DNA of 34,267 bases from Bacilli bacterium (GTDB lineage Bacteria; Bacillota_I; Bacilli_A; ML615J-28; CAG-698): assembly GCA_918272565.1 (NCBI GenBank), contig CAKJYW010000036.1:1-34267 (forward strand). Direction: 5' to 3'. Below the pieces are notes generated by a model. That model had not been told where the DNA came from. It saw only the letters and a program-made list of their open reading frames with translations, and ran no database searches. The position numbers and the translations under genes are program-made. Shown here in pieces: positions 687-27,184 of this stretch. Every line of letters starts with the position of its first letter. Within the stretch, counting starts at the first letter, position 1.

Positions 687-1943
687 TTATTTACCTAATA
701 GATAAACAGGATATGTATATACCATTTCGTTTATTGGTCTAATCTTATCACATGTGTCAATGACTAAACCTTCTTTAATCTCAAGTCCATATTTTCTTAA
801 CACATTAAAGTTTTTATTTGGCTTACTTGGGTTTTCCCCTTTCTTTATTTCTATTGGATAAATAGCATTATTTTCCACATATAATAAATCCACTTCTTTT
901 TGATCAATGTCACGATAATAGTACAAATAGTTTTTAACATTTATATTAAAGTTATAAAAACTTTTTATAATCTCCGATACAACAAATGTTTCAAAAAAGT
1001 CACCACTCATCGCGCATTCTTCTAACATTTCTGCACTAGGCCATTTACACAAATATGCGCAAAGACCAGTGTCCATAAAATATAATTTAGGTGCTTTTAT
1101 AATTCTATTAGAGACATTAGACATATATGGCTCTAAAAGTACTATAATGCCTGAAGTAACTAATATTGATAACCATCTTTTTATAGTATTTGAATCAATT
1201 CCTAACTCCCTAGCAAACACCTCATAGTTTACCACTTTTCCAGTTCGTAGTGCCAAGTAAGAGATAAAGCGCCTAAATTGAAGTTCGCTAGAAGCAGATA
1301 TAAGCTTAAGCACATCTTTTTCTATGTAAGTGTCAAAATATGATTTAAAATAAATCTCTCTTTCTGAATTATTAGTGACTATATCAGGCATTCCACCTCT
1401 AAATATTAATTCAAATATTTCTTTTTTATTCTTGTATTTAATATTAGATGTATTTTCTTTTTCAAGTAATTCTTTTATTTTTGGAATAAACTGTGTTCCT
1501 GATAATCCCTGTGATTCAATTTGATTCATAGAAGACATATTTAAAACAGCTGCTCTTCCAGCAAGTGATTCTGATATGGTTTGTTGCAACTCAAATTGAT
1601 TAGAACCAGTTAAAACATACATCAGTTCTCTATCTTTATTTTCTTTTAACCATATTTTTCTTTGTTCATCGATTATAACCTTAATCTCACTTAAAAGATC
1701 AGGGGCTTTTTGAACCTCATCTATAATCAATGGCCAAGGATGAACTTCTAAAAAACCTTTAGGATTATTAATAGCAAGTTCTCTTTCTTTTGTATCATCT
1801 AAAGTAACACTTTTAAATCTATCTCCAAATAACATATCGACAGTTGTTGATTTACCAACTTGTCTAGGCCCATAAATAACAATAGCTTGAAAAGATTTCT
1901 CCGCCTTTATAATTGATTGCTCTATATCTCTTTTAATATACAT
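687..1943 (-). CDS. AAA+ ATPase with DUF4143 C-terminal domain
   Basis: The 418-residue protein has an N-terminal P-loop domain: Walker A GPRQVGKST at about 25-33, and Walker B PLIIDEVQ at about 71-78. A sensor-like strand with TGSN follows. The C-terminal half matches the DUF4143 family, with a winged-helix-like middle (SNTIKRWLSIL). It ends in a restriction-endonuclease-like motif, VDLLYV followed by PIEIKKG (D...ExK). Such proteins are common in gut Firmicutes and Bacteroidetes and their role is unsettled; links to DNA or mobile-element defence are proposed. It is a single-gene unit with promoter at 1964-1992. It is the only complete ATPase of this type here without a 33-bp array. The family call is firm; the function is not. 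Confidence 0.9.
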   Translation of the reverse strand: MYIKRDIEQSIIKAEKSFQAIVIYGPRQVGKSTTVDMLFGDRFKSVTLDDTKERELAINNPKGFLEVHPWPLIIDEVQKAPDLLSEIKVIIDEQRKIWLKENKDRELMYVLTGSNQFELQQTISESLAGRAAVLNMSSMNQIESQGLSGTQFIPKIKELLEKENTSNIKYKNKKEIFELIFRGGMPDIVTNNSEREIYFKSYFDTYIEKDVLKLISASSELQFRRFISYLALRTGKVVNYEVFARELGIDSNTIKRWLSILVTSGIIVLLEPYMSNVSNRIIKAPKLYFMDTGLCAYLCKWPSAEMLEECAMSGDFFETFVVSEIIKSFYNFNINVKNYLYYYRDIDQKEVDLLYVENNAIYPIEIKKGENPSKPNKNFNVLRKYGLEIKEGLVIDTCDKIRPINEMVYTYPVYLLGK

Positions 1944-1998: not shown

Positions 1999-2130
1999 TT
2001 TCGATTAAATGACTAGTCGACTCGCCATTTAATCGAAAGTTCCTTTTAGAGAGCTATACATTTTTTATGACGAGTCGTTTATTCTCTCTAGAGATAACTG
2101 GTTTTTTTAGGTTTGCCACATCAGTTATCT
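1999..2130. other. Three inverted repeats with complementary loops
   Basis: Three stems lie in series. Stem 1 is a perfect 13-bp pair (1999-2011 with 2026-2038) around a 14-base loop. Stem 2 is a 7-bp pair (2047-2053 with 2084-2090) around a 30-base loop. Stem 3 is a 9-bp pair (2092-2100 with 2122-2130) that overlaps the stop codon of the nuclease gene. The loop of stem 1 holds CGACTCG (2018-2024) and the loop of stem 2 holds its exact complement CGAGTCG (2071-2077), so a loop-loop contact is possible. Neither strand has a clean T-run after a stem, so these do not look like ordinary terminators. Strand and role are unknown. Confidence 0.55.
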
Positions 2131-2661
2131 ATAACTTATTTCGCGTATTGACTCTATTTTCCATAGAGTACCTTCTTTTGTATATTCTTTTTGTTCATTT
2201 CTATTAAAAAATGAGCATGGCAAATAATCTTTTACTTCTTTGGCAAAAAATAAAAAAACAAATTCAGTATCATCAATTTTTGTGGTTAGCACAAAATCAG
2301 CTTCTATACCTTTAAATTTCCCATGTAATGACTTAAAATATAACGAATTTACACTTAAAAGCTTCTCTATATGTTGAAAATAAAACAAGCGATCTTTAAT
2401 TTGATCAATATAAACACTATTCTCTATATTTTGATATGTAATCTTTTCGTCAAGGATTTCTTTATATATACTTTTAGCTTTACGTTGAACAATAGGTATA
2501 TCTTTTAATTTGTTTAAACCAACTAGATGATAAAAATTTGCTATAGGAAAAAAGATAGTTAAAGTCTTGACTTCACCCTTGCGTTTAATACATAGCATAT
2601 ATCTTTTTTCTTTAATTCTTTCATAAACTGATGCAGCGTCTTTTAAAATGTTTTTCTCCAT
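2125..2661 (-). CDS. PBECR4-type predicted nuclease
   Basis: The 178-residue protein resembles the PBECR4 family (phage-Barnase-EndoU-ColicinE5/D-RelE-like nuclease 4). Shared features are an N-terminal helix and strand region, the block NFYHLVGLNKLKDIP at about 42-56, the helical middle with the pattern IKDRLFYFQ, and a C-terminal strand set with FLFFAKE. Family members are predicted RNases found in phages and mobile elements; I recognise the family by sequence resemblance only. It has no signal peptide. The ribosome binding site (GAGG) sits directly between the terminator T-run at 2671-2678 and the ATG, so the gene is reached only by read-through of the upstream RNA or by a cryptic promoter. 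This layout recalls type III toxin-antitoxin loci and riboswitch-controlled genes. Confidence 0.65.
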   Translation of the reverse strand: MEKNILKDAASVYERIKEKRYMLCIKRKGEVKTLTIFFPIANFYHLVGLNKLKDIPIVQRKAKSIYKEILDEKITYQNIENSVYIDQIKDRLFYFQHIEKLLSVNSLYFKSLHGKFKGIEADFVLTTKIDDTEFVFLFFAKEVKDYLPCSFFNRNEQKEYTKEGTLWKIESIREISYR

Positions 2662-2670
2662 GTTATCCTC

Positions 2671-2700
2671 AAAAAAAAGACAATCAAAGTGATTGTCTTT
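2671..2700 (-). terminator. Intrinsic terminator between the RNA and the PBECR4 gene
   Basis: Perfect 10-bp stem (2676-2685 with 2691-2700), 5-base loop, then a run of eight T on the minus strand. It ends about 10 bases before the nuclease start codon. Confidence 0.9.
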
Positions 2701-2848
2701 AATAATAATGCTTTTCTTTCGGCGAACCTATTTAGGAATTGGATAAGCATTAACCGGTGTAGACCCTCTGAAAGCCACTCCCCTAACCGAGCAACTTCCG
2801 TCTTCGGCTTAGCAACTAAAAAATTGCTCTAAGATGCATACATCTTAC
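2671..2848 (-). ncRNA. Structured RNA upstream of the PBECR4 gene
   Basis: A consensus promoter (2855-2883) and an intrinsic terminator (2671-2700) bound a transcript of about 178 bases on the minus strand. The middle is clearly richer in G and C than the flanks, which is typical of functional RNA in an AT-rich genome. It begins with a 7-bp hairpin (2830-2836 with 2841-2847). GAGCAA then follows, which can pair with either of two downstream copies of TTGCT. An 8-bp stem TAATGCTT/AAGCATTA lies near the 3' end. The 5' and 3' ends do not pair with each other, which argues against 6S RNA and SRP RNA. I see no RNase P, tmRNA or common riboswitch signature. It may be a cis-acting leader of the nuclease gene or a separate small RNA. 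Confidence 0.6.
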
Positions 2849-2854
2849 ATATAT

Positions 2855-2883
2855 ATTATATTTAATCATCTTAAAAATGTCAA
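2855..2883 (-). promoter_or_regulatory. Consensus sigma-A promoter of the structured RNA
   Basis: Minus-strand TTGACA (2878-2883), exactly 17 bases, TATAAT (2855-2860). This perfect consensus predicts strong, constitutive transcription starting near 2848. Confidence 0.85.
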
Positions 2884-3068: not shown

Positions 3069-3145
3069 TGGGGCGAACTAAGGGGATCGAACCCTTGCAT
3101 GCCGGAGCCACAATCCGGAGTGTTAACCACTTCACCAAGTTCGCC
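3069..3145 (-). tRNA. tRNA-His (GTG)
   Basis: The 77-base gene has a clover-leaf fold with anticodon GTG (complement at 3109-3111). The extra G at position -1 pairs with C73, the identity mark of histidine tRNA, and the CCA end is encoded. It is one base downstream of tRNA-Trp, so both are cut from one transcript. Confidence 0.95.
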
Positions 3146-3146
3146 A

Positions 3147-3220
3147 TGGCAGGGGTAGAAGGATTCGAACCCTCATCTACGGTTTTGGAGACCGCTGCTC
3201 TACCATTGAACTATACCCCT
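3147..3220 (-). tRNA. tRNA-Trp (CCA)
   Basis: The 74-base gene has a 7-bp acceptor stem, T-loop GTTCGAATC, anticodon CCA (complement at 3186-3188), discriminator G and encoded CCA. It reads UGG only. With TGA stop codons in the neighbourhood this supports the standard code, unlike mycoplasmas. Confidence 0.95.
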
Positions 3221-5783: not shown

Positions 5784-6467
5784 TTGAATAATTTTACATC
5801 TAAAAATGAACTCTATAATCAATACAAAAAGAATAATATGAGTCAAAGATCAAAAGCATTATTAATTAACAAATTAATAGAGGATGGTGTAATTGCTAAA
5901 ATTAATAATGATCAATACAAATTTGTGAATAAAAAGAAATATCATATTTATAGAGAATATGATGAAACAAAAGACTTTATAAATGTATTAAAGGATATAA
6001 AATTTGACTATATCATCTATAATATTACTTTTTTAAATGAGTGGTTAAATCACTTAATTGGAAAAAATACAATATTTATTGAAGTAGACAAAAAATATGC
6101 AAATACGATATATGAAGTGCTAGTAGATAATAATTATAAAAACATATTACTGAATCCATCATTAGAAGAAATTGATAAATATTCATCTAGTGACTTAATA
6201 ATTATCAAACCGCTATTTACTAGATCACCAATTAATAGAAAAGATAAATCTTTTACAATAGAAAAAATTATTGTTGATCTGTTTGTTGATGCTATTCTAA
6301 AGAGATTCTTCTCTACATCAGAATTGCCTGATATTTACAAACAAATATTTGAAAAATATGCGATTGATGAACTTTCATTAAACGCATATTTAACAAGACG
6401 AAAAATAAAAAAATCATTTTTTGAGTTCTTAAGTAATAATAAATTGGAGGACAAAATAAATGATTGA
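5784..6467 (+). CDS. AbiEi-like antitoxin / repressor
   Basis: The 227-residue product starts at TTG (5784) after an AAGGAAG site; no ATG fits as well. The N-terminal 50 residues look like a winged helix (LINKLIEDGVIAKINNDQYKF), the DNA-binding part of AbiEi antitoxins. The rest is a mixed alpha/beta domain without clear catalytic residues. It overlaps the downstream AbiEii-type toxin gene by 8 bases. In type IV systems the antitoxin counters the toxin without binding it and represses the operon. The sequence itself is distant from well-known AbiEi proteins; the call rests largely on the N-terminal domain, gene order and operator. Confidence 0.7.
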   Translation: MNNFTSKNELYNQYKKNNMSQRSKALLINKLIEDGVIAKINNDQYKFVNKKKYHIYREYDETKDFINVLKDIKFDYIIYNITFLNEWLNHLIGKNTIFIEVDKKYANTIYEVLVDNNYKNILLNPSLEEIDKYSSSDLIIIKPLFTRSPINRKDKSFTIEKIIVDLFVDAILKRFFSTSELPDIYKQIFEKYAIDELSLNAYLTRRKIKKSFFEFLSNNKLEDKIND

Positions 6468-7524
6468 TAAAAAGACATACACAAAAGAGCACTTATTATT
6501 TTTGTTAGGAAAATATAAGATAGATCCGCAATTACTAGAAAGATCAATATTTGCTTTGGGTTTATTAGAAGCATTATCGAAAGTATCAACTGATTTTTGC
6601 TTTAAGGGTGGGAGTTCATTAATGATTTTAACTAACAATCCTAAAAGATTAAGCACAGATATTGATATTTTAGTTGAACCTGATTTCGATATAGAATATC
6701 TTATTAAAGAAGCATCGAAGATTTACCCATTTATAAGTTATGAAGAATCTATAAGGAAGGCATCTACAAATATAAGCAAAAAACATTATCGCTTTAATTA
6801 CAAATCTGTTTTAAGAGAAGGAAAAGAAACGCAAATACTATTAGATGTCTTATTCGAGAAGATACCATTTGATACACTAATAAAAACACCTATTAGAAAT
6901 GAAATGTTAATCAATGCAAATGAGGATAGTTACGTTAATACACCTACAATCGAAGCACTACTAGGCGACAAATTAACAGCCTTTGCCCCACATACGGTTG
7001 GAATCAAATTCCACAATGAAGATTTTAGTAATGATAAGCGATTAGAAGTAATTAAGCAGTTATTAGATATATCTTCTTTATTTAATTTGGCTCATGATAT
7101 TGAATCAATAAAAAAAAATTATATTTCCGTATGTAATAAAGAAATAAAATATCGAAACTTAAACATCACTTATAAGGAATGTTTGCTTGATTCTTTCAAC
7201 ACTGCTTTATCCATTGTATCAAGAGGCGCATATAATAAAGAAGATTATTCTCTATTAGTAGAAGGAATTATCGCCGTTATTAATCATGTTTATGGGGAAA
7301 AGTATTCTGGAGAAAAAGCTGTTGATGATGCAGCTAATGTGATTTTACTTGTTGCTGGTATCTTAACAAATACAAACATCTTTATTGCAGAGATAAATGA
7401 ACAGCCATTAATAAATAACACGAATTATAATAAGATTAATTTTCAAAAAAAGAATCACTTTGAGGCATTTAATAAATGTGCATATGCAATTGATTTAATG
7501 CTAAAAAACAAAATCATACAATAA
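6460..7524 (+). CDS. AbiEii-type nucleotidyltransferase toxin
   Basis: The 354-residue product has the nucleotidyltransferase signature of AbiEii/DUF1814: KGGSSL at about 49-54 followed by RLSTDIDIL at about 63-71, which supplies the GS and DxD metal-binding residues. The later block LLGDKLTAF fits the family's conserved Lys/Asp motif. Characterised homologues are nucleotidyltransferase toxins of type IV systems that stop growth upon phage infection, and some modify tRNA. GGAGG precedes the ATG, which overlaps the antitoxin stop. All visible active-site residues are present, so it appears intact. A hairpin terminator ends the operon at 7542-7568. Confidence 0.85.
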   Translation: MIDKKTYTKEHLLFLLGKYKIDPQLLERSIFALGLLEALSKVSTDFCFKGGSSLMILTNNPKRLSTDIDILVEPDFDIEYLIKEASKIYPFISYEESIRKASTNISKKHYRFNYKSVLREGKETQILLDVLFEKIPFDTLIKTPIRNEMLINANEDSYVNTPTIEALLGDKLTAFAPHTVGIKFHNEDFSNDKRLEVIKQLLDISSLFNLAHDIESIKKNYISVCNKEIKYRNLNITYKECLLDSFNTALSIVSRGAYNKEDYSLLVEGIIAVINHVYGEKYSGEKAVDDAANVILLVAGILTNTNIFIAEINEQPLINNTNYNKINFQKKNHFEAFNKCAYAIDLMLKNKIIQ

Positions 7525-22075: not shown

Positions 22076-23413
22076 CTACCATTCTATATAATTAGTTTCT
22101 TTAAAAAATCTTCTCAATAAGAAAGATAAGAAATAAGGGAAAGTAAATTTATTATTGGAAAATCCTATATTCCCATTTGTCAATTTCACACCATATTTAA
22201 TGCTATTTGAACTATTCTCAATCACTGTGTTTAATGATGCTGACCTTCCTCTTTCTTTTTTTACTTCTATCGGAATGATTTCGTTTTTAATCCTAATAAC
22301 AAAATCGAGTTCTACTGTTGAGTCTTTTGATTTATAATAATATATTTTATATCCACTCTTTACTAACGCTTCAGACACCAAACTTTCATACAAAGATCCA
22401 TTATATATTTCATAATTTGAATTAACTATTAAATCCTCTTTTGATTCCTCATCTAGGTTTGCTATAAAAAGTGAGTGGTCTTGATAATAAACTCTATAGT
22501 TATCGCTAATTTCATAAACATCAAACGGAATATTTAATTCGCTTATATTATAAGCAACATTGATAATTCCTGCATCCTTTAGCCAATCTTCTATACCAGT
22601 ATATTCTCTAAACCTTGCCCCATGTCCGATTTTAGATATTTGATATTTGTGATTGTCTTTGGAAAGTTGACTTGGGATGTGACGATAAAAGTTTTTTACC
22701 CTAGCATTATCTAGTCCTTCAACATATTTAGTTATATCATCTTCATAGTCTCTACAAATTCTTTTTTGTATCTCAAAAGCTTCTCCATAACTATTTGTAT
22801 CAATGAATTTTTTGACAACCTCGGGCATCCCACCAACGAATATATATTCTTTATATATTTTTTGTAAAGTAGAAAAATAACTATCAGGTAGTGGTTTTAA
22901 TTCTTTCATATAAGAGAATATATCATCAATTTGACTTTCTTTATATCCTCTTGCCCAAAGATATTCCTCAAAATCAAGAGAATGCATTTCATATTCTTCT
23001 TTACTTCCTACTGGTATACTTTTAATTTTATTATAATTCACACCAAGTAAAGATCCAGAACAGATCACATCAAATCTTCCATCGGATGCAAATGATTTTA
23101 GTGAAGTAACAGCATCAGGATATTCCTGAATTTCATCAAATAAAATAAGAGTATTATTTGGAATAAATCTACATTTTGGGTCTAACAAACTAATCAATTT
23201 GATAACATCATTAACAGTATAGCCATCATCAAATATAGACTTAAACTTTGGTTCTAAGACAAAATTAATCTCTATAAACGAATCATAGTTCTTTCCAAAC
23301 TCTCTAATAGATGTTGTTTTTCCAATTTGTCTTGCGCCACTAACTATCAAAGGTTTATGATCTTCTCGTCTCTTCCAATCAAGTAATACTTTGTCAATTT
23401 TTCTTCTTATCAT
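22076..23413 (-). CDS. AAA+ ATPase with DUF4143 C-terminal domain
   Basis: The 445-residue protein has Walker A GARQIGKTT (about 26-34), Walker B LILFDEIQ and the sensor-like VICSGSLLG, followed by a long helical middle. The C-terminal domain carries VELDFVIRI and IPIEVKKERG, a D...ExK pattern like restriction-endonuclease folds. It belongs to the same broad family as the 687-1943 protein, but the two are distant. The function of the family is not settled. It is a single gene whose promoter region is the 33-bp array at 23422-23535. No clear terminator follows before the etfB promoter. Confidence 0.9.
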   Translation of the reverse strand: MIRRKIDKVLLDWKRREDHKPLIVSGARQIGKTTSIREFGKNYDSFIEINFVLEPKFKSIFDDGYTVNDVIKLISLLDPKCRFIPNNTLILFDEIQEYPDAVTSLKSFASDGRFDVICSGSLLGVNYNKIKSIPVGSKEEYEMHSLDFEEYLWARGYKESQIDDIFSYMKELKPLPDSYFSTLQKIYKEYIFVGGMPEVVKKFIDTNSYGEAFEIQKRICRDYEDDITKYVEGLDNARVKNFYRHIPSQLSKDNHKYQISKIGHGARFREYTGIEDWLKDAGIINVAYNISELNIPFDVYEISDNYRVYYQDHSLFIANLDEESKEDLIVNSNYEIYNGSLYESLVSEALVKSGYKIYYYKSKDSTVELDFVIRIKNEIIPIEVKKERGRSASLNTVIENSSNSIKYGVKLTNGNIGFSNNKFTFPYFLSFLLRRFFKETNYIEW

Positions 23414-25357: not shown

Positions 25358-25383
25358 GATATTTTTATTGTAAGTGCTTTTAC

Positions 25384-25419
25384 ATAACTTGTTTGTATCA
25401 TTTGATACAAACAAGTTAT
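25384..25419. promoter_or_regulatory. 16-bp perfect palindrome between divergent operons
   Basis: Arms of 16 bases (25384-25399 and 25404-25419) are exact reverse complements around ATTT. The right arm ends on the first base of the -35 of the XRE-DUF3990 gene. There is no T-run on the plus strand, so it looks like an operator. The XRE protein encoded just downstream is the likely ligand. Confidence 0.65.
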
Positions 25420-25447
25420 TGACTTTACCTCATCTCTATGTTAAAAT
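25419..25447 (+). promoter_or_regulatory. Promoter of the XRE-DUF3990 operon
   Basis: TTGACT (25419-25424), 17 bases, TAAAAT (25442-25447). Confidence 0.7.
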
Positions 25448-25469
25448 TATCATAGAAGCGAGGCATAAA

Positions 25470-26324
25470 ATGGATTATAAAATTAAAAAAGACATTCAAC
25501 TTATTAGAGACTTCTTTGAACTTACCCAAGAAAACCTAGCCCGTGAACTAGGGGTAGAGCGAGTTAGAATAGCTAGAATTGAAAGTGGCTTAAACTATCC
25601 TCGAGAAGAGTTCTTAGATTTATTATATAATTATTGCTTTAATAAAGGTCTAAGACTAAACGCTCAAAAAGAAGCGTTTTATAAAGAGGAATTATTAGCT
25701 AACCATATTTTATTAACACACGCTTCACGTAGCGAGCTTGTTGGAGAGATTAAATCAGATTACGGAAAAGCTAATAACGACTTTGGTAAAGGTTTTTACT
25801 GTGGAGAGTCTTACGAAAAATCAGCTTCTTTTATTTGTAGATCTAATAATTCATCTATCTATTTTCTAGACTTTTTTGATGATAATCTTAAAAAAGTAGA
25901 ATTTTCTGTAGATCAAGAATGGATGTTTGCTATAGCATATTTTAGAGGAAGACTAGATGAATATAAAGATAGTGAGATAGTTTTAAAGATAATAAATAAA
26001 ATAAAGAACGCTGACTATATCATTGCTCCAATAGCTGACAATAGAATGTTTAGTATTATCGATGAATTCATTAATGGCTATATAACAGATGAGCAATGCA
26101 AACACTGCCTTGCTGCTACACCCCTTGGTCTTCAATATGTATTATTAACAGAAAAAGCTGTTAAAAACATCAAGATATTAGAAAAATGCTATATCTCAAG
26201 TAGTGAAAGAAATTATTATGCAAAAAAGCAAACGGATTTTCAAAAACAAGGCTTCGATAAAACAAAGCTTGCTAGAATTGAGTACAAGGGGAAAGGAAAA
26301 TACATTGAGGAGATATTCAAATGA
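25470..26324 (+). CDS. XRE helix-turn-helix fused to DUF3990 domain
   Basis: I start at the ATG at 25470 (284 residues), after GAGG and below the promoter; an earlier ATG lies upstream of the -35. Residues 1-60 are an XRE domain (LTQENLARELGVERVRIARIESG). From about 80 a DUF3990 domain follows, with LTHAS (His84) and DFGKGFYCGES (104-114). This resembles the H...YGxGFY elements of ADP-ribosyltransferase-like folds. DUF3990 proteins often sit in toxin-antitoxin-like gene pairs. The fused XRE domain would let the protein control its own operon through the palindrome at 25384-25419. It overlaps the next gene by 4 bases (ATGA). Enzymatic activity is inferred, not shown. Confidence 0.78.
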   Translation: MDYKIKKDIQLIRDFFELTQENLARELGVERVRIARIESGLNYPREEFLDLLYNYCFNKGLRLNAQKEAFYKEELLANHILLTHASRSELVGEIKSDYGKANNDFGKGFYCGESYEKSASFICRSNNSSIYFLDFFDDNLKKVEFSVDQEWMFAIAYFRGRLDEYKDSEIVLKIINKIKNADYIIAPIADNRMFSIIDEFINGYITDEQCKHCLAATPLGLQYVLLTEKAVKNIKILEKCYISSSERNYYAKKQTDFQKQGFDKTKLARIEYKGKGKYIEEIFK

Positions 26325-27184
26325 TCAAAAAAATAGATACTGATGGCCTCTCTTTATGTAAGATTCAAGGCACTCTTTTTGAAGAATCAGCAAATAAAAC
26401 AAGTACAAGTTCAAGTATCTTCATTAGACGCTTTATGAATTCTAGCGTTTCAAAAGAAATGGATTCAATTGACTTTCTAAATAACACCAAAAGAGTAGAT
26501 GATATCTTTTTAGAACTTGACGAAGAATTTGGTAAAAGTGATTATGGTAAAATTAAATACAACACCGAAGTGTTGTATTGGATTGGTTACATTTATCGTT
26601 ATTTTGCATATACTTACAACCTAAGTTCAAAACAAGTTTATAACATGGTTAAACCCGATGAACTAAATAAAAGATATTATGTATTTCACACATTTGACCC
26701 TGCTTATGCAATTGATAGGATCCTAGAAGAAAAAGGAATTAGCTTTGATGAAGCAAAACTAAACGATAGATTACTTAAAATGATAAGAGCTAGTGCCTAT
26801 AAAGAAAACCTCGTAATCTTACCAAAAGAGGAAAGAAGCAAAGATAACGTGCTAAAAGAAGATTCCATCTTTAGTAGCACAATAACATTAATAGTAGAAT
26901 ATAAAGATATGGATGTAGCAAAAGCCATTTTTAATAATACCGTATTTGGCAGTGCAGTGTTTTTAGTTTCATTTTTAAACGAAAAATACAAAAACGAAGA
27001 AATGGTCGATGTTATAATTAGAAAAGCTCTACTATATGCTATAGATAATCTTAATTTATCAGCATTAAAAATAGAAAAAGATGATGAATTATTACAAAAC
27101 GCCTTAATAAAAATAGGCGCCACTTCATATAACGAAGATTTAGATTATAAATATTTTAATATACCAAAGAATATAAAAAGATAG
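26321..27184 (+). CDS. Antitoxin-like domain, possibly joined to a GNAT-like tail
   Basis: The 287-residue product has two parts. Residues about 30-140 (FIRRFMNSSV, WIGYIYRYFAYTYNLSSKQVYNMV, YVFHTFDPAYAIDRILE) resemble small proteins commonly encoded next to DUF3990-like and related toxins in Firmicutes, which I take for an antitoxin or immunity domain. The C-terminal part from about 170 ends in a pattern reminiscent of an acetyltransferase (ALLYAIDNLNLSALKIEKDD, then IKIGATSYNED), but the acetyl-CoA P-loop is not evident, so this is a weak call. ATGA overlap with the XRE-DUF3990 gene implies matched expression. Confidence 0.6.
   Translation: MIKKIDTDGLSLCKIQGTLFEESANKTSTSSSIFIRRFMNSSVSKEMDSIDFLNNTKRVDDIFLELDEEFGKSDYGKIKYNTEVLYWIGYIYRYFAYTYNLSSKQVYNMVKPDELNKRYYVFHTFDPAYAIDRILEEKGISFDEAKLNDRLLKMIRASAYKENLVILPKEERSKDNVLKEDSIFSSTITLIVEYKDMDVAKAIFNNTVFGSAVFLVSFLNEKYKNEEMVDVIIRKALLYAIDNLNLSALKIEKDDELLQNALIKIGATSYNEDLDYKYFNIPKNIKR

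Follow-up and report, generated by a model that had tools for sequence, protein, structure and literature searches.

What is the role of a structured RNA that is preceded by its own promoter and separated by a terminator from the gene for a predicted nuclease? The question was raised by a cassette on the minus strand of the 34,267-nucleotide contig CAKJYW010000036.1 from a Bacilli bacterium (assembly GCA_918272565.1; the whole stretch is here called the window), for which an initial annotation had proposed an arrangement like that of a type III toxin-antitoxin system or a riboswitch. The anatomy described there was borne out. A sigma-A type promoter with a perfect match to the consensus (TTGACA-17-TATAAT, 12 of 12 positions, 2855-2883) is followed by an RNA of about 178 nucleotides, a Rho-independent terminator with an 11-bp stem and a T run that separates the RNA from the gene (2676-2700), a GAGG ribosome-binding site located 5 nucleotides ahead of the ATG (2667-2670), and a gene for a PBECR4-domain protein of 178 amino acids, a predicted BECR-fold endoribonuclease (2125-2661), all on the minus strand. 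The fold predicted for the transcript (2848-2671) had an energy of -49.7 kcal/mol (z = -3.07), and none of 200 shuffled sequences was equally stable. It starts with two short 5' hairpins (2847-2830 and 2828-2811) that together span 2811-2847 and precede the core of the RNA.

The cassette lies next to two tRNA genes, for tRNA-His and tRNA-Trp (3069-3220, minus strand), which are located just upstream and mark a typical island site. A gene for an AAA_14-DUF4143 ATPase (687-1943, minus strand) follows immediately downstream of the nuclease gene, and a second ATPase gene of this kind is found at 22076-23413 (minus strand). Elsewhere in the window, a gene for a DUF6577 protein and one for an AbiEii nucleotidyltransferase (5784-7524, plus strand) form an AbiE-like (type IV toxin-antitoxin) pair and thus a second candidate defence or toxin-antitoxin locus, and an HTH-DUF3990 gene that overlaps a gene with a weak DUF3791 match (25374-27184, plus strand) also looks like a toxin-antitoxin-like pair.

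The covariance-model search that the initial annotation had recommended identified the core of the RNA (2704-2809, minus strand) as the Rfam family RF02958, named drum. The match covered the whole model (1-112) with a score of 46.3 bits against a gathering score of 43 (E = 3.6e-7 in a searched stretch of 1.4 kb), and a covariance model of our own, R1, which was built with the window drum among its sequences, gave 58.6 bits. The RNA is therefore already known as a motif, which the initial annotation had not recognised, although its function is undescribed: the Rfam entry is an orphan motif, filed as an sRNA gene with no function given. The motif reportedly originates in the Weinberg/Breaker comparative-genomics set. 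A search for a paper on its function returned none from the open literature, short of the original 224-motif paper, subscription journals and preprints; the entry is covered in PMC7779021 without a function, and for the k-turn of drum, folding in the presence of Mg2+ and in vitro binding of L7Ae have been described (PMC8191799). A match of the window RNA to Clostridioides SQ1002 was dismissed as a chance hit (19.9 bits versus a cut-off of 128).

Comparison of 19 drum RNAs revealed that the apical loop of helix P2 pairs with a segment close to the 3' end, using 14 different sequence pairs. The mean length of the paired run was 5.6, compared with 4.0 +/- 0.2 when partners were swapped between RNAs, and 0 of 2000 swaps did as well. 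In the window, this pseudoknot connects UUAGG in the P2 apical loop (2782-2786) with CCUAA (2732-2736), and 88% of the corresponding alignment cells were paired. For the pseudoknot and the nested helices together, 69% of the cells were paired versus 57% in shuffled alignments, and the covariation score was 0.37 versus 0.19, with none of 500 shuffles as good; these figures are probably underestimates, since the alignment was made with MAFFT only and some of its rows are mis-registered. No tandem repeats above chance were detected at the drum loci, where drum is present as a single copy, in agreement with the initial description of the RNA as unrepeated.

An RNA followed by a terminator and a gene has the order of an attenuator, and drum contains a k-turn, an element also known from riboswitches (PMC8191799), so that it might be a cis-acting leader in which a signal opens the terminator and PBECR4 is expressed. 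The initial annotation had pointed to a possible switch, in which GAGCAA would pair with either of two copies of TTGCT. These letters are present, but the predicted fold joins GAGCAA and the first TTGCT in a local hairpin, and the second TTGCT is located in one arm of P2, a drum helix supported by covariation. A hairpin composed of other letters (AACAATAAT/ATTATTGTT) is located in the same position in the related locus L011, as judged by eye. The conserved local hairpin and the covariation in P2 both contradict the alternative pairing, which was the only one examined systematically for the riboswitch reading.

The protein matched the Pfam family PF18813 (PBECR4) with 98.3 bits, far above the cut-off of 27, and is of the PBECR4 kind, as had been proposed; Pfam alone recognised it, and it had no match in NCBIfam or PADLOC. 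His45 (codon 2527-2529) was invariant in all 22 aligned PBECR4 proteins of diverse origin, while position 150 (codon 2212-2214), a serine in the window, was Ser or Thr in most of them. This combination of His and Ser/Thr is the active-site pattern of PBECR domains (PMC5512222). A model of the protein obtained with AF2 (pLDDT 76, pTM 0.75) placed His45 in a helix (residues 40-46) and Ser150 in a strand (residues 145-152). Foldseek searches with this model gave no significant match, the best relevant one being to HigB2 (5jaa, probability 0.20), and the assignment to the BECR fold thus rests on Pfam and on the conserved residues, not on structure. A sequence search of the PDB gave nothing significant, and NCBI names solo PBECR4 genes only by their domain.

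To quantify how often the RNA and the protein occur together, we searched whole genomes with the Rfam model and with our own models and obtained 32 convincing drum loci. PBECR4 was detected with its HMM directly downstream and on the same strand at 27 of these, and relics of it followed drum at two more (L122, a weak match of 12.9 bits, and L133, recognised by eye), which leaves three loci without PBECR4 (L044, L049 and L135). Omission of the window and L011, through which the association was discovered, gave 25 of 30. Of the 20 loci that the last search contributed, many were close relatives within a single family and not independent; the 12 loci from earlier searches came from diverse genomes and included 10 with PBECR4. 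Starting from the protein and inspecting upstream regions, as had been suggested, we found drum just upstream of the gene in all plasmids (20/20) that matched the window's PBECR4 and in L011, the protein of which is 48% identical to that in the window. A promoter-like site, defined as at least 9 of 12 consensus positions within 110 nucleotides upstream of drum, was present in 28 of the 30 loci with drum and PBECR4 (30% in shuffled sequence), and a terminator within 75 nucleotides downstream of drum was present in all 30 (4.5% in shuffled sequence). A drum match of 31 bits in G029 was rejected as a false positive because it was located inside a coding sequence, and the multi-domain PBECR4 proteins (L005-L010) had no drum.

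The linkage of drum to PBECR4 is thus conserved across many Firmicutes, and the RNA, with its covarying pairing, is neither peculiar to the window nor a housekeeping RNA found apart from PBECR4, either of which would have counted against the initial proposal. It is highly improbable that drum is a small RNA with a function of its own that merely happens to be located next to PBECR4. Rfam does file drum as an sRNA gene, and the three genomic loci and the phage copies described below are without PBECR4, but an adjacency of 27 in 32, in many families, contrasts with the scarcity of PBECR4 in general, for which 344 genomes of the phylum gave a total of only 14 matches. Nor was such an adjacency observed for another orphan RNA, skipping-rope (RF02924), which served as a control: PBECR4 was undetected near 21 of its 22 loci in a scan of open reading frames of at least 50 amino acids with a start codon, a scan that short relics may escape and that missed even the exception, the relic in L031. 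With no PBECR4 near those 21 loci, skipping-rope was rejected as a second partner. In L031 (1588-2324), skipping-rope and a terminator are located ahead of the PBECR4 relic, with an apparent inserted stretch between them and no indication of a general link.

Drum also occurs without PBECR4 in phages, in decayed plasmids and in a few genomes. In the Enterococcus plasmid type represented by L019, whose drum match is shared by ten plasmids, drum is followed by a broken terminator and PBECR4 is gone, whereas L020 has kept drum and a PBECR4 gene truncated to its first ~58 residues. In the Kochikohdavirus ECP3, drum is located between the split reading frames of the DNA polymerase, probably inside an intron, for which Rfam gave no match in the region; it is 79% identical to the drum of plasmids from E. 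faecalis, the host species common to both. In the Listeria Pecentumvirus LMSP-25, drum is found inside a tRNA array, which also contains a ROOL-like RNA (L018:6444-6995; 88.5 bits, below the cut-off of 99.1). Among contigs from IMG/VR, drum was located among tRNAs in L064 and L076 and ahead of an integrase-like gene in the type represented by L073, L089 and L097. A looser DNA pattern for drum yielded 46 stretches in viral contigs, with five loci, three of them alike, judged convincing by R1, while two stricter patterns had no viral match. Searches of the viral contigs for PBECR4 of the drum type, based on an alignment and on two single proteins, found nothing, and no PBECR4 match was present in any of the drum-bearing phage records and contigs searched, of which the IMG/VR contigs may be fragments.

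All five phage drums have kept the pseudoknot, and none of them has a promoter or a terminator of its own. The lack of these signals and of PBECR4 is the pattern expected of an RNA that acts in trans. By analogy with the pseudo-ToxI of phage PhiTE, a copy of an RNA antitoxin that the phage carries with no toxin beside it (PMC3475682), the drums of phages may act as antitoxin decoys; they differ from that precedent in that they are putative and that some are located in tRNA arrays. A cis-acting leader, by contrast, is difficult to reconcile with phage drums that have no terminator or PBECR4 after them and with the persistence of drum where the toxin gene has been lost, and we consider it unlikely. 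Drum might instead serve PBECR4 as a cofactor, as a guide or as its preferred substrate, for example by directing or activating the nuclease. Linkage and co-inheritance cannot separate inhibition from activation, but an RNA that is kept without the protein, and carried by phages without it, fits an inhibitor better than an activator, and an upstream RNA followed by a terminator provides the excess of RNA that antitoxins need. We regard a cofactor role as quite unlikely.

Further evidence comes from solo PBECR4 genes without drum, which we found on plasmids of Enterococcus, Pediococcus and Macrococcoides, in phages and on chromosomes. At 11 such loci (L021, L024, L027, L032, L038, L039, L040, L042, L043, L120 and L121) the place of drum is taken by tandem repeats of about 50 nucleotides (83-84 nucleotides in L024 and L032) that are unrelated to drum and are followed by a terminator and then by PBECR4. 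Their self-match scores ranged from 23 to 46, as compared with a maximum of 13 for shuffled sequence. In eight of these loci, a 5' hairpin and two repeats generate three loops and three linkers, which pair as pseudoknots (loop0-tail2, loop1-tail1 and loop2-tail0). We counted 109 paired bases versus 80 +/- 4.2 when loops and tails were swapped between loci (0 of 2000 as good), a result that is suggestive, the segments having been delimited by eye with the pairing idea in mind and not blindly. In a tree of the proteins, a branch with 100/100 support separated PBECR4 of the repeat type from the drum type, and the RNA types clustered on the tree with 6 changes compared with 14.3 after shuffling; long branches make the details within each half unsure. 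RNA-like stretches with a terminator that are neither drum nor tandem repeats precede PBECR4 in L004 (1360-1504), L026, L029 and L035 and are possible further antitoxin families, while no RNA was evident ahead of PBECR4 in L036 and L037. The repeat-type module of L040 (pEfm741160-vanA) recurs on some 75 other Enterococcus plasmids and is possibly a plasmid-stability module.

That a sister clade has unrelated tandem repeats in the same slot is again not what is expected of a cis-acting leader, and together with the drums of phages and decayed plasmids this replacement favours an antitoxin over a riboswitch. Of the two interpretations offered initially, the one that likened the locus to type III systems is therefore sustained by the conservation of RNA, terminator and PBECR4 in many genomes and by the repeats of the sister clade, and the riboswitch is not. 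Type III systems (ToxIN, AbiQ, CptIN and TenpIN) share with the drum cassette the order of promoter, RNA, Rho-independent terminator and endoribonuclease gene (PMC5086642), RNase activity being a prediction for PBECR4, as well as a pseudoknotted RNA and a distribution over plasmids, phages and chromosomes; the ~50-nucleotide tandem repeats and terminators of the sister clades are a further likeness (PMC5086642). They differ in that drum is a single-copy RNA of about 106 nucleotides rather than a series of repeats of 34-50 nucleotides, and in that PBECR4, assigned to the BECR fold, gave no hit at the sequence level to whichever type III toxin models Pfam, NCBIfam and PADLOC contain. The best reading is that drum and PBECR4 work like a type III system without being a member of the ToxN family; the cassette is not filed as type III because repeats and a ToxN-type toxin were looked for and were absent.

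A second parallel is AbiF with its abiF RNA (RF03085), exemplified by RCd22 of C. difficile, which likewise comprises an Rfam orphan motif with a SigA promoter, a terminator and a toxin gene downstream, and in which the RNA neutralises the toxin through direct binding (PMC12373285). The AbiF toxin is an Abi_2 (HEPN) protein, unlike PBECR4, and its RNA belongs to a different family with two motifs; neither an Abi_2 toxin nor an RF03085 RNA was found at the drum-PBECR4 locus. The gene order is the same in type III systems and in AbiF, and both rely on binding of the RNA to neutralise the protein (PMC5086642, PMC12373285). The window protein shares the Pfam domain PF18813 and the active-site pattern with the PBECR domains known from polyvalent proteins, for which solo versions are mentioned; these were proposed to be injected effectors with no RNA partner named (PMC5512222), nor was an RNA partner of PBECR named elsewhere in the open literature that was searched. 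Within the same literature we found no mention of the PBECR4 link, the P2-loop pseudoknot or the idea of phage decoys.

We therefore propose, with a probability of roughly three in four, that the locus is a toxin-antitoxin module made of two genes, one for an RNA antitoxin, drum, and one for the PBECR4 RNase that drum keeps in check. What the comparisons establish is that the order of the cassette is conserved, that it has a promoter and a terminator, that drum contains a pseudoknot and is linked to one clade of proteins, and that another RNA family takes its place in the sister clade. The single sigma-A promoter would produce a short pseudoknotted drum RNA that mostly ends at the terminator, and occasional read-through would allow the PBECR4 gene to be transcribed too. 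This order would keep the RNA in excess over the nuclease, as antitoxins need, and the RNA would bind the nuclease and hold it inactive. If the supply of RNA were stopped or the RNA destroyed, for example upon loss of the plasmid or when a phage shuts off host transcription, the longer-lived nuclease would be freed to cut cellular RNA. Direct inhibition of the protein by the RNA, RNase activity, toxicity and a role in phage defence are what we infer from the comparisons above. Counting against an antitoxin are the single copy of drum, given that type III antitoxins are repeated, the three genomic drum loci without PBECR4, and the failure of PBECR4 to match the searched type III toxin models.

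More broadly, and with the chances evenly balanced, PBECR4 may be the toxin of a large unrecognised superfamily of RNA-antitoxin systems in Firmicutes and their mobile elements. Its antitoxins would be of two or more architectures that are unrelated to each other, one being drum, a pseudoknotted RNA present as a single copy, and another the 5' hairpin with two ~50-nucleotide repeats whose three loops pair with three linkers. Drum would also have been acquired as a decoy antitoxin by large phages, among them phages of Enterococcus with hosts that carry drum-PBECR4 plasmids, and would in some cases have been placed within tRNA arrays. The proposal offers a testable function for the orphan drum RNA and for solo PBECR4 genes, and would add to the toxins neutralised by RNA a nuclease without detectable similarity to ToxN. 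The module is found on enterococcal plasmids, including vanA and optrA plasmids, and the drum RNAs carried by phages are predicted to be anti-defence decoys.
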